A DNA stretch of 26,235 bases from a virus: IMG/VR virus record IMGVR_UViG_3300031658_000099, positions 1-26,235 of that record; one strand, written 5' to 3'. The notes beneath the pieces were generated by a model that saw only the letters and a program-made list of their open reading frames with translations, searched no databases and had not been told where the DNA came from. The translations under genes and the position numbers were made by a program. Below, one piece after another: positions 1,536-25,729 of the stretch. Every line of letters starts with the position of its first letter. Positions within the stretch are counted from its first letter, which is position 1.

Positions 1536-1741
1536 GCTACACCCAATCAGAACGGAAAGAGATAGCGGAGAACATCCGTGAGTTCTTAAAGCAAGAGAAG
1601 AAGGAAGAGTTTTTCTTCATGACAAGAGGCAGAGAAGAACACCTTGTAAAACGAGAAAACGACCTAACTTGGTACGATCGCGACAGGTTGGAGAATGTCG
1701 CACGAGATGTAGAAGGCCGGATAACACATTTTGAAGGATGA
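1532..1741 (+). CDS. Hypothetical small charged protein (69 aa)
   Basis: The gene is held between two ATGA overlaps (1532-1535 and 1738-1741), which argues for translation coupled to both neighbours. The product is very rich in Glu, Lys and Arg (ERKEIAENIREFLKQEKKEE) and is probably helical. It has no cysteine cluster, membrane segment or catalytic motif that I recognise. It sits directly before the DNA methyltransferase and could be an accessory to it or an unrelated early protein. Confidence 0.6.
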   Translation: MSYTQSERKEIAENIREFLKQEKKEEFFFMTRGREEHLVKRENDLTWYDRDRLENVARDVEGRITHFEG

Positions 1742-2361
1742 AGGTTCTTGAATTATTTGCCGGCAGCCGAAGCATTAGTAAAGCGGCTATTGCTCAAGGA
1801 CACGAAACTTTTAGTCTTGATTTGAATCCATTTGAAGGAATCGATTATGTATGTGATATCCTCATGCTTGATATTAATCAAATACCGTGGCAACCTGACA
1901 TGATTTGGGCATCGCCTCCATGTACTGGGTTTTCAGTCGCGGCAATTGGACACCATTGGACAGGAGGCAAAAGAGCTTACATTCCAAAAACAGACACAGC
2001 AAAATTAGGAATGCAACTTCTTAGAGAGACGCTTCACGTCATTGATTGGTTTGAGCCAAAGGTCTGGTTTATTGAGAACCCACGAGGGTTAATGAGAAAG
2101 ATGCCGGAACTTGAAGGATACAATCGACATACTGTTACATATTGCCAGTACGGTGATACCCGTATGAAGCCGACAGATATTTGGACAAACTCCAAAACAT
2201 GGAAACCGAGAGCAATGTGCAAGAACGGATCACCCTGCCATGAGGCAGCACCAAGGGGAAGTAGGACAGGAACGCAAGGACTCAAAGGAAACTTCGAAAG
2301 AAGTAAAATTCCGGAAGAGCTTTGTTCTGAGATTATAAACACCGCATCTTTATCAATATGA
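1738..2361 (+). CDS. Orphan DNA cytosine-5 methyltransferase-like protein
   Basis: The 207-residue protein carries the landmarks of C5 DNA methyltransferases. The AdoMet-binding motif I is LELFAGSRS at 4-11. The catalytic SPPC loop ends at Cys62. ENPRG at 113-117 takes the place of the usual ENV. QYGDTR near 137 corresponds to motif VIII. It is shorter than most C5 enzymes (about 300 residues or more), with little room for a separate target-recognition domain. No restriction endonuclease gene lies nearby, so self-protection of phage DNA is the likeliest role. The first third looks visibly more A+T-rich, with many T-ending codons, than the flanking genes, which hints at a different origin. It overlaps both neighbours by ATGA. 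Confidence 0.8.
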   Translation: MKVLELFAGSRSISKAAIAQGHETFSLDLNPFEGIDYVCDILMLDINQIPWQPDMIWASPPCTGFSVAAIGHHWTGGKRAYIPKTDTAKLGMQLLRETLHVIDWFEPKVWFIENPRGLMRKMPELEGYNRHTVTYCQYGDTRMKPTDIWTNSKTWKPRAMCKNGSPCHEAAPRGSRTGTQGLKGNFERSKIPEELCSEIINTASLSI

Positions 2362-2934: not shown

Positions 2935-3281
2935 TGGAAGCGATAAAAGTGAACAATCCGAACACCCCTAAAAAGGAAGCAATGCTCGAAGCTCTTGAGA
3001 AGTCTTTGGGTATTGTATCAACCGCGTGCAAGATGGTAGACGTAGGAAGAACGTCTCACTACGAATGGATGAAGGCAGACCCCGACTATAAGAAAGCGGT
3101 GGACTCTATCCAAGACAGCGTCCTCGACTTTGCAGAATCGCACCTCTATAAACTCGTGAAGGAAGGCAACCCCGCAGCGACCATCTTCTTCCTCAAGACC
3201 AAAGGAAAGAAGCGAGGGTATATAGAACGGCAAGAGATAGAGGTAACCGAGAAGAAGCCTCTTTCGTGGCTCGATGAGTAA
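2934..3281 (+). CDS. Small terminase subunit (TerS)
   Basis: The 115-residue protein has an N-terminal helix-turn-helix (LEALEKSLGIVSTACKMVDV then GRTSHYEWMKADPDYKKAV). After it comes the helix and the AATIFFLKTKGKKRGY segment that is typical of small terminase subunits. TerS binds phage DNA at the packaging start and recruits the large subunit. Position immediately before and overlapping the large subunit (ATGAGTAA at 3274) confirms the assignment. The start is the TAATG overlap with the ParB-like gene. Confidence 0.85.
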   Translation: MEAIKVNNPNTPKKEAMLEALEKSLGIVSTACKMVDVGRTSHYEWMKADPDYKKAVDSIQDSVLDFAESHLYKLVKEGNPAATIFFLKTKGKKRGYIERQEIEVTEKKPLSWLDE

Positions 3282-4428
3282 ACTCGCTGCAACATATTAT
3301 CACGTCAAGAAATCAAAGGCGAAGATCCAAGTCCATCAAGGGGGAAGTCGTAGCGGAAAGACATTCTCCATCCTTACGGCACTCATAGAGCTTTGCAATA
3401 AGAACACGGGGCTCGTGATTACCATATGCAGAAAGACCTTCCCTGCACTTCGAGCGACAGCGATGAGGGACTTCTTCGAGATACTCAACCGCGAAGGACT
3501 CTATAACCCCGACCACCACAACAAGAGCGAAGGAACGTACCGACTATGGGGTAACATGATAGAGTTCATTTCAGTCGATATGCCCGCCAAGGTCAGAGGT
3601 AGGAAGCGGGACATCCTCTTCATTAACGAAGCCAACGAGATAAACCTTGAAGACTGGCGACAGCTCCTCCTCAGAACAACGGGAAGAGTATTAATCGACT
3701 TCAACCCATCAGACGAATTTCATTGGATATATGAGCAAGTTATCCCAAGAGAAGATGCGGACTTCTTTCAAACAACGTACAAGGACAACCCGTTCCTTCC
3801 GCAAAGCGTGGTCATGGAGATCGAACGATTTAAAGACGTGGACGAGAACTTCTGGAGGGTCTACGGACTCGGAGAAAGAGGAATCGCCACATCGACCATC
3901 TTCACCCATTGGAAAGAAATAGACCAAATACCAAATGAATACAGACTCCTCAACATCGGGCTTGATTTCGGATATACGAACGACCCTACCGCAGTCGTCA
4001 GAATCTACACCGACGGGCACGGATTCGCCGTCGACGAAATCTGCTATGCGACGAGACTCACTAATTCAGATATCGCGAAAATGCTCCGAGATAATCAAGT
4101 CAATCGAACTGATGTTGTTATATGTGACTCCGCAGAACCCAAGAGCATCGACGAGATACATGCTCACGGATTCAATACTCACGGAGCAAGGAAAGGACGT
4201 GACTCAATTAGAAGCGGAATATCGTTCCTCCACTCTCGCCCGCTTGCGGTCACTTCTCGAAGCGTCAACCTCATCAGAGAGCTACGCAACTACAAGTGGA
4301 AAGAAGACAAGAACGGGAAGCAACTAAATGAACCCGTCGATTCTTTCAATCACGCGATAGATGCGATGAGGTACGGGATTACATGGAATCAAACGAACCC
4401 GAACTTTGGCTCCTATGCTATCGGATAA
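3274..4428 (+). CDS. terL: Large terminase subunit (TerL)
   Basis: The 384-residue packaging motor has an ATPase domain and a nuclease domain. Walker A is GGSRSGKT at 23-30. Walker B is DILFINEANE at 113-122, with the catalytic Glu. The nuclease begins with LDFGYTNDP near 230 and continues with CDSAEPKS near 285 and SFNHAIDAMRYG near 365, which supply the metal-binding acids of an RNase H-like fold. Length and motifs fit the PBSX/Terminase_3 family. It docks on the portal (gene at 18334) and cuts concatemeric DNA. It is the last gene of its operon; the next gene has its own promoter. Confidence 0.93.
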   Translation: MSKLAATYYHVKKSKAKIQVHQGGSRSGKTFSILTALIELCNKNTGLVITICRKTFPALRATAMRDFFEILNREGLYNPDHHNKSEGTYRLWGNMIEFISVDMPAKVRGRKRDILFINEANEINLEDWRQLLLRTTGRVLIDFNPSDEFHWIYEQVIPREDADFFQTTYKDNPFLPQSVVMEIERFKDVDENFWRVYGLGERGIATSTIFTHWKEIDQIPNEYRLLNIGLDFGYTNDPTAVVRIYTDGHGFAVDEICYATRLTNSDIAKMLRDNQVNRTDVVICDSAEPKSIDEIHAHGFNTHGARKGRDSIRSGISFLHSRPLAVTSRSVNLIRELRNYKWKEDKNGKQLNEPVDSFNHAIDAMRYGITWNQTNPNFGSYAIG

Positions 4429-4458
4429 GGAAAAAAGTAAAGTTTTTCGTAAATTACG

Positions 4459-4489
4459 TCGAGGGAAAGGAAAAAAAGCCTTACATTTG
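4459..4489 (+). promoter_or_regulatory. Bacteroidota-type promoter, cassette 1 (TACATTTG)
   Basis: TACATTTG at 4482-4489 fits the -7 element TAnnTTTG of the Bacteroidota primary sigma factor. The expected -33 TTG is poor here (TCG at 4459-4461, 20 bases upstream). The element and the following leader match the stronger promoter at 22568 almost base for base (about 40 of 46 positions through ATGAAC), which is the main support. Confidence 0.65.
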
Positions 4490-4521
4490 TGTCAACAACA
4501 ACGAAACAAACACACACAGCC

Positions 4522-4791
4522 ATGAACGACCAAGCAATCTATAACGAACTAGCAAAAGAGAACGGAGCCTTTGGAATCACTTTAGCTTGCGGTAATGTCG
4601 CTTTGGAGTTCAACAGCAAGACGCGAGAAATTACAGGCCGTCGAATAGACGCAGTAGCGGCAAAGACGAAGACCCTAGCCACTGACTTAATGTTACTGAA
4701 AAAGACCTTTGCTTTTCAAACAACATACGCAGAAGCCTTGGAGCAGATTATGTCTGAGTACAACGAAAACACTATTTCATTTTGCCGATAG
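4522..4791 (+). CDS. Hypothetical small protein, cargo of cassette 1 (89 aa)
   Basis: The ATG at 4522 is preferred over an in-frame GTG at 4489 because 4489 lies inside the promoter, and because ATGAAC after GCAGCC is identical at the second cassette. The protein (FGITLACGNVALEFNSKTREITGRRIDAV...LEQIMSEYNENTISFCR) looks like a beta-strand pair followed by helices. I do not recognise it, and it does not resemble the gene in the equivalent place of cassette 2. There is no Shine-Dalgarno sequence; the leader is rich in A and C. Its stop overlaps a GTG-started short peptide (TAGTG at 4789-4793). Confidence 0.65.
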   Translation: MNDQAIYNELAKENGAFGITLACGNVALEFNSKTREITGRRIDAVAAKTKTLATDLMLLKKTFAFQTTYAEALEQIMSEYNENTISFCR

Positions 4792-4862
4792 TGAATGAGC
4801 CTGAATGGTTTCAGCAGGTACTTGACCGCACCAACCAAACCGAATCCTTTCTTCTATCTTAA
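4791..4862 (+). CDS. NEPEW short peptide, copy 1 (23 aa, GTG start)
   Basis: GTG overlaps the stop of the previous gene (TAGTG), mirroring the TAATG/TGATG couplings elsewhere in this genome. The product contains NEPEWFQQVLDRTNQTE and is nearly identical to the start of the frame at 22910 (NEPEWVQQVLDRTEQTK). Between the copies AAT/AAC, GAG/GAA and CCT/CCC differ only at third positions, which indicates selection on the peptide. It ends two bases before a terminator hairpin. Function is unknown. No ATG is available, so weak or coupled translation is likely. Confidence 0.55.
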   Translation: MNEPEWFQQVLDRTNQTESFLLS

Positions 4863-4863
4863 C

Positions 4864-4887
4864 AGCCCCTCACGGGGCTTTTTTTTT
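4864..4887 (+). terminator. Rho-independent terminator after cassette 1
   Basis: A perfect six-base-pair stem AGCCCC/GGGGCT closes a TCAC loop and is followed directly by nine T residues. It separates cassette 1 from the late operon. Confidence 0.92.
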
Positions 4888-5043
4888 GTCCTAACTTTCC
4901 AGACACGCAAACCCGCAAAATCTCCGTGAATTATCCGCAAACACGCACGATTCACGCAAACACGCATTTCTCACGCATTTTTCACGCATTCCCGTATCGT
5001 ATGGGATTAGGTAAGGAAACCAATCAAATTAAGTTAGTATCAT
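4888..5043 (+). promoter_or_regulatory. Non-coding region before the late operon with phased CACGCA repeats
   Basis: CACGCA occurs six times, starting at 4904, 4942, 4953, 4961, 4972 and 4983. Several steps are 11 bases, about one DNA turn, and the related CCGCAA occurs at 4913 and 4935. An imperfect dyad CCCGTA-TCG-TATGGG lies at 4991-5005, and an A+T-rich stretch leads to the ATG at 5044. No TAnnTTTG promoter is visible. The region may hold the late promoter and its activator site, or an origin or packaging element; the sequence alone does not decide. Confidence 0.6.
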
Positions 5044-5697
5044 ATGGAACTCAAGCTCCCTCATAGATGGTCAGACCTTTCACTCGGTGAACTCCAGGTG
5101 ATGATGACCTCAGAGAATCCCCTCGAAAGAGTTTCTGCTTGCTCAGGTAAGTCTGTCGAACAACTGCGGAAGATGCCTCAGAAGCTCTTGGAAGCCGCAG
5201 GAGAGCACATCGACAACCTACTCACCCAAGAGACTGCCCGATTCGAGAAAGTCCTTACAATGGACGGTAAGCGATTGGGCTTTATCCCCGATTGGGACGC
5301 ATTTACTGCGGGCGAGTGGATAGACCTTGAAACCTACCTCGAAGACTTCTGGAAGAACGCTCACAAAGTGATGTCGATTCTATACCGTGAGGTGACTTAT
5401 GAGATTGGAGAGAGCTACGAGATACAGAAATACACAGCTAAAGAAGATGCATCGCTATTTGAGGAGATGCCTGCGGATTTGGTATCGGGTACGCTGCTTT
5501 TTTTTTGGACTACCAGAAACGAACTGCTGCATTCTATTCAGTCCTCTTTACTTCGGGTGGCGGAGGAAGCGACCCGGTTGGCGAAAAGTGGGGATGGTAT
5601 CACATACTCTACACCCTCGCAGGAGAAAACGTCCTCAAGATGGACTCGATTACGTCGCTACCTGTCCAAGTTGTTTTTCAGCACCTCGCATATTTAA
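5044..5697 (+). CDS. Tail assembly chaperone, gpG-like (zero frame)
   Basis: The 217-residue frame begins MELKLPHRWSDLSLGELQ, with SVEQLRKMPQKLLEAA, LGFIPDWDAFTAGEWIDLE and a later LVSGTLLFFW segment. This order matches a family I recall from Bacteroidota phages beside tail genes. Tail assembly chaperones bind the tape-measure protein during tail building. A run of nine T residues at 5498-5506 offers a -1 slip into a second frame with convincing coding character, as in lambda G/GT. Beyond the slip the zero frame continues for 63 codons, so this stretch would be read in two frames. A homopolymer sequencing error is the main alternative. The start is the first ATG after the non-coding region. 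Confidence 0.65.
   Translation: MELKLPHRWSDLSLGELQVMMTSENPLERVSACSGKSVEQLRKMPQKLLEAAGEHIDNLLTQETARFEKVLTMDGKRLGFIPDWDAFTAGEWIDLETYLEDFWKNAHKVMSILYREVTYEIGESYEIQKYTAKEDASLFEEMPADLVSGTLLFFWTTRNELLHSIQSSLLRVAEEATRLAKSGDGITYSTPSQEKTSSRWTRLRRYLSKLFFSTSHI
5498..5506 (+). other. Candidate -1 ribosomal frameshift site (T9 run)
   Basis: In the zero frame the codons are CTT-TTT-TTT-TGG. A T-TTT-TTT heptamer at 5499-5505 lets both phenylalanine tRNAs slip back one base and continue as TTG-GAC-TAC. The -1 frame is open from 5463 to the stop at 5727-5729 and has no ATG before its conserved-looking part. Nine T residues are also a classic place for sequencing indels. Confidence 0.6.
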
Positions 5698-16360: not shown

Positions 16361-17289
16361 TGGCTAACGCTACAGTTGGAGTCGGCACGTATGCCGGCGA
16401 AGCGGCACGTCCTTACGTCGCTGCTGCGGTTTTGTCTGCTGACACTATCGCAAATGGTTATATTTCTGTACTTGAAAACGTACATTCAAAAGCAGTTTTG
16501 CGCAAGTTCTCCGGAGCTGCAATTCAGTTGAATGCCGACTGCGCGTTCACGACTCCGAGTTCTGACCAATTAACTTTGGGCGAAGCGGTTCTCGATGCTG
16601 CTGCTTTGAAAGTCAACGAGCAAGTGTGCAACGCTGACCTTCGTGCAACTTGGGAATCTGCCCAAATGCGCGGACAGTCTTCAAACGCTCCTGCTGACTT
16701 TACAACTTTCGCTGCTCAATACGTAGCTGCTAAGGTTGCTGAGGGAATCGAAAATAACATCTGGCACGGAAAGTACGACCACACGGACGGAGCTACCGGA
16801 ACGGGAACTTATCAGTCTTTCTCAGGTTTGATGGCCGCTATCGTAGCAGCTACACCGGGCGAAGAAGATACTTTCTCGGGTGCAACTACAGCAACGAACA
16901 TCTTGGCCCGAATTACTGCTTTGGCTGTGCCAAACGTAATTGCAGGAGACCCTGAAACAAAGCTCTTCATGAGCCGCGCGATGAAGCAGTTGTATTACAC
17001 AGCTCTTGCAGGAACGGCAAACCTTCCCTTCCTCGCTGAAGGCATGGCTAACTTCTTCCAAGGTTATGACATCATCACTCCTGCGGGAATGCCCGATGAC
17101 ACGTTCTTGTTTGCTCAGAAGTCGAATTTGTACTTCGGTACTAATTTGTTGACAGACCATATCAATGCTTCTGTTTTGGACTTGCAAGGTGTAACGGGTG
17201 ACGATGTGACTCGGGTCATTATGCAGTTCTCTGGCGGTTGTCAAATCGTTGACGCTGCTGCTATCGCAGTTGGTCGCCGTTCAGCCTAA
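16360..17289 (+). CDS. Major capsid protein
   Basis: The 309-residue protein is rich in Ala, Gly, Thr and small residues. It has internal segments usual for HK97-fold capsids: LENVHSKAVLRKFSGA near the N-terminus, VAAKVAEGIENNIWHGKYD in the middle, and a C-terminal FAQKSNLYFGTNLLTDHINASVLDL. It follows the protease and scaffold-like genes and is followed by a hairpin that may trim or terminate its mRNA, consistent with a highly expressed gene. Cysteines at several positions (DCAF, QVCNAD, GGCQIV) are noteworthy but not diagnostic. Assignment rests on context and overall character. Confidence 0.85.
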   Translation: MANATVGVGTYAGEAARPYVAAAVLSADTIANGYISVLENVHSKAVLRKFSGAAIQLNADCAFTTPSSDQLTLGEAVLDAAALKVNEQVCNADLRATWESAQMRGQSSNAPADFTTFAAQYVAAKVAEGIENNIWHGKYDHTDGATGTGTYQSFSGLMAAIVAATPGEEDTFSGATTATNILARITALAVPNVIAGDPETKLFMSRAMKQLYYTALAGTANLPFLAEGMANFFQGYDIITPAGMPDDTFLFAQKSNLYFGTNLLTDHINASVLDLQGVTGDDVTRVIMQFSGGCQIVDAAAIAVGRRSA

Positions 17290-17297
17290 TTTAATTG

Positions 17298-17327
17298 GGG
17301 AGGGGCTTTAAATCCCTCCCTTTAATT
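17298..17327 (+). terminator. Hairpin after the major capsid gene (possible partial terminator)
   Basis: GGGAGGG at 17298-17304 pairs with CCCTCCC at 17314-17320 around a 9-base loop, followed by the weak T tract TTTAATT. It probably gives partial termination or 3'-end protection, since genes continue on the same strand. Confidence 0.7.
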
Positions 17328-17337
17328 CCTCTATCAC

Positions 17338-17859
17338 ATGGCTTGTACATTAACAATCAACGGCAGGGCGTTTCCCTGTAAGGATAAAATCGGAGGAATC
17401 AAGCGCGTTTGGATCAAAGCGTTTGACTCAACGGATTGGGGGACTATTACGGCGGGCGTAGTTGCTGCGGCAGGTGCTATCACGGTGTTTGGTTTCGAAC
17501 TCACAAAGAACTCAGGTTCATTCCAGCAAGCGGTGAACGCTTCAATGGAGAACGGAGTTGTTTTCTACTCTCAAGTTCTTGAGATGACAATGCCCAACTT
17601 ACTTGCGACAGACAACGTAGAAGTTGCCGACTTGCTTAAGGGGCGTTTGACTATCATCGTTCAAGATGTCAACGACAATTATTTCGCGATGGGTCACACT
17701 CAAGGAGCTGAGGCTTCAGGAGGTACTATCGGAACGGGAACAGCAAAAGGAGACCTCAACGGGTATCAATTGCAGTTTACCGCAGAAGAAGTTATTCCGG
17801 CTCCATTTGTTGCCGCTGACGATTCCCATATCACGTTCACGGCAGGGGTTACTCCTTGA
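17338..17859 (+). CDS. Major tail (tube) protein-like
   Basis: The 173-residue protein begins MACTLTINGRAFPCKDKIGGIKRVWI, with later FELTKNSGSFQQAVNASMEN, VFYSQVLEM and LLKGRLTIIVQDVNDNYFAMG, then a GDLNGYQLQFTAEEVIPAPF stretch. This order matches a tail-tube-like family recalled from Bacteroidota phages (GR..PCKD.IGGIK ... ENG..F..QVL ... GR..IIV.D.N.N....G). It is flanked by two hairpins, as is common for very abundant structural proteins. It is unusual that it sits between capsid and portal genes rather than beside the chaperone or tape measure. Confidence 0.65.
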   Translation: MACTLTINGRAFPCKDKIGGIKRVWIKAFDSTDWGTITAGVVAAAGAITVFGFELTKNSGSFQQAVNASMENGVVFYSQVLEMTMPNLLATDNVEVADLLKGRLTIIVQDVNDNYFAMGHTQGAEASGGTIGTGTAKGDLNGYQLQFTAEEVIPAPFVAADDSHITFTAGVTP

Positions 17860-17889
17860 TTCTGTTTTTTTGGTTAGGTTTAAAAGAGG

Positions 17890-17919
17890 GGGAGGGCATT
17901 ACGTCCTCTCCCTTTTAGT
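17890..17919 (+). terminator. Hairpin after the tail-tube-like gene
   Basis: GGGAGGG at 17890-17896 pairs with CTCTCCC at 17906-17912, with one G-U pair, followed by TTTTAGTT. The T tract is imperfect, so partial termination is likely. It resembles the hairpins at 17298 and 24952. Confidence 0.65.
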
Positions 17920-17929
17920 TTAAAATGAA

Positions 17930-18334
17930 ATGATACATCTCAATCCCAACTCAGCCACCGAGCAGACTGTCTATCTGACTCTTCAGGAGATGAAGAAAGA
18001 CTTCAATACGTTCGCGAATTATCTCGTACATTTCCAGAGCATGGCAAGCCGCGAAGATTACTATTTCATTGGAGATGTCGCAACAGACAATCCGAGATAT
18101 ACCGCGCTCTCTATTTTTACCAATGTAGACGATCCTAGGAACGGGAATATCCTACTAGAGGAAACGGGTCAATATTTCTATAAAGTCTACGGACAGAACT
18201 CAGCGACTAACTTAGACCCAACCGACGCAGCTGTTGTCGCACTCATCGAAGAAGGGACTCTCGATGTAACGGGAGCAGTTGGTTACAACATCCCAACCAT
18301 CGACGTTCCCGATAACGTTATTTACTATCAGTAA
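17930..18334 (+). CDS. Hypothetical structural protein (134 aa)
   Basis: The protein starts MIHLNPNSATEQTVYLTLQEM and contains YYFIGDVATDNPRYTALSIFTNV, ILLEETGQYFYKVYGQNSATNLDP and VVALIEEGTLDV. The layout (short N-terminal beta strand, a G-Y-F-Y-x-V-Y-x-Q segment, NLDP) resembles a small structural protein that sits beside tail-tube-like genes in other Bacteroidota phages. Its precise role is unknown to me; a tail or neck component is likely. It follows a hairpin and its stop overlaps the portal start (TAATG). Confidence 0.6.
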   Translation: MIHLNPNSATEQTVYLTLQEMKKDFNTFANYLVHFQSMASREDYYFIGDVATDNPRYTALSIFTNVDDPRNGNILLEETGQYFYKVYGQNSATNLDPTDAAVVALIEEGTLDVTGAVGYNIPTIDVPDNVIYYQ

Positions 18335-22598: not shown

Positions 22599-22629
22599 TG
22601 ACAGCAAAACGAAACAAACACACGCAGCC

Positions 22630-22896
22630 ATGAACAACGTAACCACAACAAAAGAGCTTAAAGGTCAATACTCAATTGAAGTGACTACTCCAAAAGGAGC
22701 AACGTACACATTTACTTTGCGTAATGAGTCAGGAATGGAAGACGTATGCAAAACAGATTTTTGGAATTTAACGACTATGGATGACTTGAACATGGACTGC
22801 TTGTCTTGGTGGCCATCTAAAAAGATTTGTCTACGCTATGTCATGCAAACGATTGATTTTGATTTCGCGGCTGCGAAATATAATCGTGAAGACTAA
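22630..22896 (+). CDS. Hypothetical small protein, cargo of cassette 2 (88 aa)
   Basis: ATG at 22630 is used because the in-frame extension upstream runs through the promoter and terminator. The protein (ELKGQYSIEVTTPKGATYTFTLR...DFWNLTTMDDLNMDCLSWWPSKKICLRYVMQTIDFDF) looks beta-rich at first and then mixed. I do not recognise it, and it does not resemble the protein in cassette 1, although promoter, leader and first codons (ATGAAC) are shared. As the first gene after a consensus early promoter, a host-takeover role is conceivable. Confidence 0.65.
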   Translation: MNNVTTTKELKGQYSIEVTTPKGATYTFTLRNESGMEDVCKTDFWNLTTMDDLNMDCLSWWPSKKICLRYVMQTIDFDFAAAKYNRED

Positions 22897-22909: not shown

Positions 22910-23119
22910 ATGAACAACGAACCCGAATGGGTTCAGCAGGTACTTGACCGCACCGAGCAAACCAAAAGCAATCTAACAAAACAAACAGATTATGGAACAC
23001 TACACAATCGAACTAGAAGACAATACTTCACTCGAAATAGAGTACGAAGTCGACGCAGGAGTCGAGGGGTCTTATCACGAAGCTCCTTCGAATGGCTTCC
23101 TCAGCATCCAATCTTGTAA
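22910..23119 (+). CDS. NEPEW short peptide, copy 2 (ATG start; 69 codons open)
   Basis: ATG at 22910 begins MNNEPEWVQQVLDRTEQTK, nearly identical to the peptide at 4791. After about residue 27 the frame runs 128 bases into the next gene out of phase, and the translation becomes Arg-rich without visible conservation. The functional part is therefore probably the first 20-30 residues, as in copy 1, which stops after 23. Silent differences between the copies support coding. Function is unknown. Confidence 0.55.
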   Translation: MNNEPEWVQQVLDRTEQTKSNLTKQTDYGTLHNRTRRQYFTRNRVRSRRRSRGVLSRSSFEWLPQHPIL

Positions 23120-24407: not shown

Positions 24408-24736
24408 GCAGATACAGATGGACGTTGAACGAAGAGAAGTTGCTTGCAGAGATGGTGAATATCACTTGCGAGAAACAAACGGGACGCATTGACTGGAAGC
24501 TCATGAGGCCAATCGGAAGCCATACGCTTGCTGCAATGCAGACGCGATGGAGTAAGAACTTGAAACCCGAATACACTTGGAACGGAAAGAAGTACATTCT
24601 AAGCGAGCAGACTACATCCAAGGTATCAACACCTAAGAAGAAGAGAGAACGTGCAAAGAAGACCCCTCAAATCAAGTCTGTGAAGATATCACGCTCTTTC
24701 CTTTGGGGGGCAATCAAATACGAACGCTATGAATAA
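24404..24736 (+). CDS. SANT/Myb-like DNA-binding protein (110 aa)
   Basis: Residues 4-55 (YRWTLNEEKLLAEMV...KIDWKLMRPIGSHTLAAMQTRWSK type) have the spaced tryptophans and three-helix pattern of SANT/Myb-like domains. Here they are W6, W31 and W48, with RIDWKLMRPI between. The C-terminal half is basic (TPKKKRERAKKTPQIK), consistent with DNA binding. Such domains are known in phage regulators and accessory proteins. It overlaps its neighbours by a few bases on each side. It could regulate the early operon or bind the CACGCA array, both untested. Confidence 0.55.
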   Translation: MSRYRWTLNEEKLLAEMVNITCEKQTGRIDWKLMRPIGSHTLAAMQTRWSKNLKPEYTWNGKKYILSEQTTSKVSTPKKKRERAKKTPQIKSVKISRSFLWGAIKYERYE

Positions 24737-24944
24737 CTTGAAAATCTTCCTTTTAAAGAACTACGGTTCTATTAAAAACGTAGGGGATGAGCTGCGATTG
24801 AACGAGGCAACCGTTCGGAGTTGGTATGACTACCGACCGCGCAATATGATGAAGTATCTTCCAGAGATATCGAAGCAATGTGATGCAACCTTCGCGGAAA
24901 TCATTAGAGAAGTCATGGAACGCGAGAGCAATTTGAACAACTGA
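24729..24944 (+). CDS. Small helix-turn-helix protein, possible regulator (71 aa)
   Basis: The 71-residue protein contains a helix-turn-helix pattern, GSIKNVGDELRLNEATVRSWYDYRP, followed by NMMKYLPEISKQCDATFAEIIREV, as in compact Cro/CI-like proteins. It is the last gene before a strong terminator and directly precedes the replication genes. It is the only repressor-like protein in the genome; without an integrase, a transcription switch of lytic growth is likelier than lysogeny control. Confidence 0.6.
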   Translation: MNNLKIFLLKNYGSIKNVGDELRLNEATVRSWYDYRPRNMMKYLPEISKQCDATFAEIIREVMERESNLNN

Positions 24945-24991: not shown

Positions 24992-25729
24992 ATGAAACAG
25001 AAAACCAACGGAATTTGGATCCCCGAAGAGATTTGGGAACTCGAAGACCTCAACCCAATGCAACGAATCTTCCTTTCTAAAGTCCATGCGCTATCTCAAA
25101 AGGACGGCTCGTGTTGGGCAGGCGATGACTTCCTTGCTGAAGCGTTGAGGGTATCCCCGCAGTACGTGAGGAAGATGCGTCAAGCACTTTGCGAGAGCGA
25201 GTATCTGGAATGTCAGGGATATGGACACCAAAGGAAGATGACAATCAACCTCGATTTGAAAGAAGCAACTACAGTTGCAAGTAGAAAAACCAAGAAGCAA
25301 CCACAGTTGCAAAAGAAGCAACCACAGTTGCAAGAGTTGCAACAGGAGGCGCAACTAAAAGCAACTACAGTTGCGCATAGTATAGACTATAGTAAAGAAC
25401 AGAATATAGAACATACTATAGAAGGGATTTTGCTTCCTTTTGATTCTCAAGATTTCAAAGATTCTTGGATCATGTGGAAACAAGAACGCAAAGAACAAAA
25501 AAAGAAACCGTATACCTTGCGAGGAGAACAAGCACAACTTCACAGATTACAAAAACTATCAGACAATGACCAACGAACAGCCATCGACATCATTACCTAT
25601 TCAATTGCCCAAGGATACCAGGGACTCTTCGCAGAGCGAGGAACTGCAAAGAAGGGAATACTTACAAGCCAAAGCGACAGAGATAAGCTTGAGGAGTATA
25701 TCCGCACCGGGTCTATTTCAAGCCAATAA
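24992..25729 (+). CDS. Replication initiator (lambda O / DnaD-like layout) with internal origin
   Basis: The 245-residue protein has an N-terminal winged-helix-type domain (MKQKTNGIWIPEEIWELEDL...FLAEALRVSPQYVRKMRQAL, residues 1-90). A Gln/Lys-rich linker (about 92-128) is encoded by the iterons. The C-terminal part ends DNDQRTAIDIITYSIAQGYQGLFA, typical of phage replication proteins with a DnaD-like tail. Initiators of this kind bind origin repeats inside their own gene and recruit the helicase loader. The next gene begins inside its last 164 bases in another frame. It follows a terminator, and I see no clear promoter in the 12 bases before its ATG. Confidence 0.75.
   Translation: MKQKTNGIWIPEEIWELEDLNPMQRIFLSKVHALSQKDGSCWAGDDFLAEALRVSPQYVRKMRQALCESEYLECQGYGHQRKMTINLDLKEATTVASRKTKKQPQLQKKQPQLQELQQEAQLKATTVAHSIDYSKEQNIEHTIEGILLPFDSQDFKDSWIMWKQERKEQKKKPYTLRGEQAQLHRLQKLSDNDQRTAIDIITYSIAQGYQGLFAERGTAKKGILTSQSDRDKLEEYIRTGSISSQ
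25265..25421 (+). other. Candidate replication origin: four palindromic iterons plus A+T-rich unwinding tract
   Basis: GCAACYACAGTTGC occurs at 25265, 25297, 25318 and 25361 (14 bases each, with dyad arms GCAAC/GTTGC). The start-to-start distances are 32, 21 and 43 bases, about 3, 2 and 4 helical turns, so the sites face the same side. Half-sites lie near 25336 and 25351. An A+T-rich stretch with TATAG at 25381, 25388, 25405 and 25417 follows. The layout mirrors the lambda origin inside gene O. Confidence 0.8.

Follow-up and report, generated by a model that had tools for sequence, protein, structure and literature searches.

Organization of the terL junction

The DNA analyzed here, to which we refer as the window, comprises 26,235 nucleotides of a virus record (IMGVR_UViG_3300031658_000099) with a 254-bp terminal repeat and therefore represents a genome of about 26 kb that is either circular or circularly permuted. 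The gene content is that of a tailed phage and includes terS, terL, portal, and endolysin genes as well as an O-like replication gene. The closest portal relatives are those of the Nonlabens phages P12024S/L (34% identity), and the window contains promoter elements that we take to be of the TAnnTTTG type (read by eye), which together point to a marine member of the Bacteroidota as host. A search of known plasmids and phages gave no DNA match. A DNA methyltransferase gene of the window (1738-2361) was present in only one of 18 compared records (G001). Inside the late operon, terminator-like hairpins at 17285-17345 and 17855-17935 (by eye) are separated by a few bases from the start codon that follows, which leaves little room for promoters, so that read-through or antitermination seems to be needed.

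The junction of interest is bordered by terL and a gene of the phrog_32199 family, termed the next gene in the following (Table 1). Between these borders lie an accessory gene (the cargo), a probable 23-codon micro-gene, a terminator, an array of short repeats with a dyad at its right end, and a short leader, in this order. The array is located after the terminator in a gap of 156 bases (4888-5043), the extent of which had been given correctly in the preliminary description.

Table 1. Features of the terL junction in the window
Feature	Position	Strand	Remarks
terL	3274..4428	+	Left border of the junction; stop context CGGATAAGGAAA
TAnnTTTG-type promoter element of the cargo gene	4482..4492	+	TTACATTTGTG; by eye
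Accessory (cargo) gene, moron-like	4489..4791	+	GTG-start ORF as listed, 100 aa
Probable micro-gene	4791..4862	+	GTG start, 23 aa, MNEPEWFQQVLDRTNQTESFLLS; precedes the terminator in several relatives
Intrinsic terminator of the cargo	4864..4887	+	AGCCCC-tcac-GGGGCT (stem 4864-4879) and T run, then conserved tail GYCCTAACTTTC
Phased array, ten hexamer units	4904..4996	+	CACGCA x6, CCCGCA, TCCGTG, TCCGCA, CCCGTA
Dyad CCCGTA-TCG-TATGGG at the right end of the array	4991..5005	.	In 3 of 33 main-clade array alleles
Next gene, phrog_32199 family	5044..5697	+	Right border of the junction

The cargo gene has no PHROG or Pfam match and is missing from the 18 other records compared; an in-frame ATG at 4522, which is 3' of a conserved leader, is a likelier start than the listed GTG. 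The leaders at 4500-4530 and 22608-22638 of two accessory genes are nearly identical (AACGAAACAAACACACRCAGCCATGAAC), as if cargo cassettes had a common front end. The conserved micro-gene, which in several relatives directly precedes the terminator of the cargo (motif MNxEPEWFQ[QE]VLDRT...), showed variable sites mostly at third codon positions (2/0/7 by codon position in 10 variants). A partial second copy is found at 22916-22966 in the accessory region of the window.

Units of the array and their spacing

All six CACGCA hexamers of the plus strand that had been described (4904, 4942, 4953, 4961, 4972, and 4983) are present and clustered. This number was nevertheless an undercount, as degenerate copies at 4912, 4923, 4934, and 4991 fill the register and result in ten units with steps of 8, 11, 11, 8, 11, 8, 11, 11, and 8 bp, i.e. 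in groups of 1, 3, 2, 3, and 1 units. Nine of the ten units fit the core MCGYA, and the unit at 4923 (TCCGTG) is the one poor, degenerate copy. The count of ten is based on a core in which the last position may be A or G; with the stricter MCGYA core, the chain of the window appears as 7 units, with 4923 failing.

The entire window contains 13 CACGCA on both strands, which is about the number expected by chance, and what stands out is therefore the clustering and not the number. When the whole window was shuffled 400 times with dinucleotides preserved, CACGCA reached at most 2 per 102 bp, compared to 6 observed, and 8/11 chains of [N][AC]CG[CT][AG] did not exceed 3 units, compared to 10 observed. 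With 5000 shuffles of positions 4890-5043, the respective maxima were again 2 and 3. The array of the window is also predicted to be strongly curved, with 0 of 200 shuffles as bent (computed with wedge values). As the curvature was weak in ten other arrays tested (fractions of shuffles as bent 0.045 to 0.41), we rejected it as a conserved property.

When steps of 5 to 14 bp were allowed, 44 distinct arrays (loci L138, L176-L185, L240, L262, and L264 left out) comprised 132 steps of 11 bp, 66 steps of 8 bp, and four others (5, 5, 5, and 6 bp), which are all at array edges; 198 of the 202 steps are thus 8 or 11 bp. One of these arrays is bacterial (L194/L195), and the remaining 43 phage arrays, some of which are cut by contig ends, show 14 distinct step patterns without a single 8-8 or 11-11-11 succession. 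None of 10,000 shuffles lacked both. Units are grouped by one to three at 11 bp, and the groups are joined by 8-bp steps, with a best common period of 9.9-10.0 bp. The 11-11-8 and 11-8 successions hence keep all units on one helical face.

In a scan of 2.9 million viral contigs, steps of 11, 11, 8, and 11 bp were found in 20 stretches, whereas the spacing control with steps of 10, 10, 9, and 10 bp gave none. This result, together with the strict 8/11 rule that three lineages of phages obey (see below), lends good support to the earlier proposal that the array consists of phased sites to which a protein would bind. Two of the 20 stretches (L262 and L264) are GACGCA repeats inside one gene family, in which the ACGCA core and triads joined by an 8-bp step recur within a DnaD-like initiator gene. 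A match of the L262 protein to a DnaD-like helicase loader suggests that the 11/8 grammar is used by initiator-type proteins, with the reservation that L262 and L264 represent one lineage, in which the repeats are also under coding constraint.

The array is an optional allele

We compared the junction in relatives using two protein-guided scans with 80 loci kept each. The 125 loci with both genes, which include the window and several loci from one contig, gave 79 distinct junction alleles, and 76 remained after three alleles with incomplete terL had been dropped. Arrays were scored at three or more units. The junction occurs in four states: empty (terL stop, 29-31 nt, next gene; 21 alleles), array only (20), cargo only (gene, terminator, and conserved tail GCCCTAACTTTC; 22), and cargo plus array (13). 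All four have the short leader GTAAGGAAACC...AAGTTA upstream of the next gene. The array is consequently present in 33 and missing in 43 of the 76 alleles. Array and cargo are independent of each other (Fisher p 0.36), and a single locus (L046) has the array before the cargo. The dyad of the preliminary description was indeed found in the window, but only three of the 33 array alleles, that of the window included, have it; it is therefore specific to the lineage of the window.

The array is polymorphic among phages whose terL is 90-96% identical. L003, the terL of which is 96% identical to that of the window, has an empty junction, and in the terL tree a distance of about 1.6% separates L104 with cargo from L120 with array. 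No array was found anywhere in five records of 25-27 kb with array-less junctions (G001, G006, G008, G009, and G010). The presence or absence in near-identical phages together with these array-less records indicates that the array is dispensable, and the gap thus need not hold a late promoter, an origin, or a packaging site. It had been thought that the gap must contain the late promoter, which is not supported, as terL and the next gene are separated by a mere 29-31 nt in 21 of 76 alleles. The 43 alleles without array, and the array-less records without an array elsewhere, likewise speak against a late promoter or late activator site and against an obligatory packaging site or origin; a pac site that is required in every genome is not compatible with the polymorphism. 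A dispensable accessory origin or regulatory site is possible.

On the terL tree of 76 rows, the array changed at least 16 times and the cargo at least 21 times; these counts may be inflated by recombination, and 22 of the 72 inner branches of this quick tree are open. Such a high turnover, the variation from 3 to 10 units per array, and the insertion point that is common to cargo and array would be expected if the array were a small tandem repeat without function that spreads by recombination at a hot spot of gene flux and varies by unit slippage. Slippage, however, would also allow steps of 9, 10, or 12 bp, which is not what the 198 of 202 steps of 8 or 11 bp show, and the core and grammar are kept across lineages with about 50% terL identity. 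We therefore regard a nonfunctional repeat as improbable.

The 33 main-clade arrays all point the same way, with the repeats on the sense strand. This would suit an RNA element, i.e. a C-rich, G-poor transcript that is read by Rho or an RNA-binding protein, and the transcript is indeed poorly structured: the region 4890-5046 has a z of -1.6, with 12 of 200 shuffles as stable, so that a structured RNA at this position is not convincing. An Rfam covariance-model search of 4400-5100 was negative up to E=1, RNA readers are not known to require phasing close to the helical repeat, and a relocated copy (G414, see below) is antisense to both neighboring operons, which makes it very unlikely that the array acts as RNA.

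Occurrence in other phages and in bacteria

A pattern scan of the viral collection with steps of 11, 8, and 11 bp yielded 49 stretches. By our reading, 42 of these belong to the junction of terL with the next gene and six to a different border (L134, L136, L137, L158, L166, and L167), and the remaining one is unrelated (L138). Some of the 42 come from a second clade, whose terL is 49-60% identical and which is also polymorphic, with the array in 7 and without it in 8 of 15 loci (L255 and L257 not counted as members). The pair G416 and G417, in which most core genes are 90-100% identical, differs by a clean insertion of the array between AGTGAA and TAAAATG. In G414 (locus L263), the module of the second clade has been relocated together with its flanks to a position away from terL of that record, between a small membrane-protein-like gene (3' of the lysis gene) and an early gene, and is inverted relative to both. 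The clean insertion and the relocated, reversed module indicate that the array is portable. For orientation independence, the single inverted copy is thin evidence, given the uniform orientation in the main clade.

In a third lineage, the array is located between the terminator at the lysis end and the early promoter. Its end in L134 and L166 is just upstream of the early-operon promoter TTG-N19-TATATTTG, directly after the late terminator, and cargo-bearing alleles of the terL junction similarly place the array after the cargo terminator. These positions would fit an operator or an upstream activator or roadblock, with a regulator that blocks read-through at a unit border or stimulates the next promoter. 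At the terL junction, however, no promoter is visible 3' of the array; the preliminary description was right that no TAnnTTTG element can be seen by eye in the gap, and a sigma-70 type scan of the gap found no promoter, although a phage-specific promoter type is possible. Moreover, the same genes must be expressed in the 43 of 76 alleles without array, the inverted array in G414 and the element of the early promoter are about 110 bp apart (by eye), and homologues of the sigma-like protein occur in array-less records. A role in transcription is thus possible but unlikely.

As the array could have come from the host, we also scanned bacterial genomes. The strict 11,8 CACGCA pattern was found in none of 395 Bacteroidota genomes, and a CACTCA array was found in none of 61. 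This near-absence from the Bacteroidota genomes scanned led us to reject a host origin. Ten hits were obtained from the species-genome collection, namely eight actinobacteria, one alphaproteobacterium, and one Saprospiraceae MAG, and the flanks of the actinobacterial and alphaproteobacterial hits look GC-rich and repetitive by eye. The MAG (L182, 7634-7680) has an intergenic CACGTA array with steps of 11, 8, 11, and 8 bp, which alone among the cellular hits is similar to the arrays of phages; among 31 genomes of its family, it was the only one with CACGYA arrays.

Candidates for a binding protein

Among the records compared, we found no gene that the array carriers have in common and that the array-less records lack; over all records, the strongest candidate occurred in 57% of 14 carriers and in 0% of 10 others. 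The three proteins that had been suggested as binders do not track the array, as homologues of the sigma-like protein and of TerS are found in all seven, and homologues of the SANT-like protein in four of the seven array-less main-clade records, some of these records being fragments. A ParB_N-like protein, the sole partition-like match among the scanned genes, is also encoded in array-less records. A 71-aa helix-turn-helix-like protein encoded ahead of the O gene (24729-24944) is a further candidate, as is the O-like protein. As no gene tracks the array, its binder, if there is one, would be either a host factor or a core protein of the phage.

TerS is encoded by a core gene, and its ring of helix-turn-helix domains could in principle wrap the array, which would then be a non-essential enhancer of pac. 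The array adjoins terL in two clades, and a period near 10 bp suits a wrapped path. Against this role in packaging stand the near-identical phages without array and the L134 clade and G414, where the array is not near terL; in addition, a review (PMC9611059) describes the binding of TerS to pac in vitro as weak and mostly non-specific. We consider an enhancer of packaging highly improbable.

With its tandem direct repeats at fixed spacing, the array has the form of iterons. The O-like gene of the window contains iterons of the type GCAACYACAGTTGC, and relatives have another type, CCGTAAA/TTTACGGG; these types do not follow the presence of the array. CMCGYA iterons are absent from the replication genes of these phages, and the replication genes of the second clade have no iterons. 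Since the O-gene iterons differ from the array units, the array does not match the phage's own initiator sites, and the own initiator is not supported as the binder. The GCAACYACAGTTGC iterons at 25259-25377 inside the O-like gene, for which relatives swap in the CCGTAAA/TTTACGGG type, are probably what had been described as a first array of the window. A 40-kb record (G004, loci L227/L228) has two O-like genes with different iterons, one set of which has a 22-bp period with NCGYA cores; this record may be a joined assembly of two phages.

Relation to known repeat systems

The binding sites of lambda CII and of late activators are direct repeats one turn apart. The array likewise presents direct repeats on one helical face, but it has far more units with steps of 11 and 8 bp, and no promoter follows it at the terL junction. 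Phage morons are optional DNA between genes that adjoin in relatives. The array is such an optional insert at a junction, and the cargo even has its own promoter and terminator, but the array itself is gene-free, without promoter and terminator of its own, and occurs with or without cargo (20 alleles have it without).

The iterons in phage initiator genes of the O/DnaD type (lambda O type) resemble the array as tandem direct short repeats with fixed spacing, and those of L262 and L264 share the ACGCA core and the 11-11-8 grammar. Unlike initiator-gene iterons, the array is non-coding, away from the initiator gene, dispensable, and mismatched to the phage's own iterons. Plasmid parC centromeres consist of direct repeats of 10-11 bp that are bound serially by ParR, with the DNA wrapped around the protein (PMC9426499). 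The serial direct repeats are similar, but the spacing of the array alternates between 11 and 8 bp and its carrier is a phage. The scanned genes include no parM or parR, and no partition genes lie beside the array or track it, which speaks against a parC-type centromere. The stoperators and intergenic repeats of mycobacteriophage clusters A and O are also short, protein-site-like repeats in intergenic DNA with gene flux at the repeats (PMC4351075). Stoperators are single sites that are scattered by the dozens over a genome, in contrast to the one compact array per genome seen here. Phased direct-repeat arrays as such are already known; our literature search found no description of an array with this step rule that behaves as a gene-free optional allele.

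A proposed portable, iteron-like docking site

We tentatively favor the view that the array is a portable, dispensable, iteron-like docking site at the level of DNA, with a core phage or host protein as the putative binder. The helical phasing, the one copy that has been moved and inverted, and the poor structure of the RNA argue for DNA as the level of action. Tandem direct copies of the degenerate core MCGYA would be held on one helical face, and one protein would bind them next to one another, giving rise to a complex that is wrapped or filamentous. The array might then work as iterons do, as an accessory initiator-type or nucleoprotein-organizing site that alters phage fitness without being essential. 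We infer protein binding, the class of the binder (as no gene tracks the array), and an iteron-like action rather than that of a late promoter. The lack of CMCGYA iterons in the replication genes of these phages and the single lineage behind L262 and L264 speak against an iteron-like role.

A gene-free mobile "non-coding moron" that spreads among Bacteroidota phages as an optional, iteron-like allele with a fixed 11/11/8 grammar, and which would be either a decoy or competition element or a transplanted accessory origin, appears unlikely to us. Its binder would not be encoded alongside the array and could be, for example, an initiator or a regulator that belongs to competing phages or to the host.

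The corrected view of the gap, which need not hold the late promoter, is of practical relevance, as the old view would have misdirected promoter mapping. For the docking site that we favor, the spacing rule predicts how the putative binder would be placed on the DNA. As an optional non-coding module in small tailed phages, the array offers a clean, testable case, and the natural near-identical pairs with and without array (G416/G417 and L120/L104) make its effect directly measurable.
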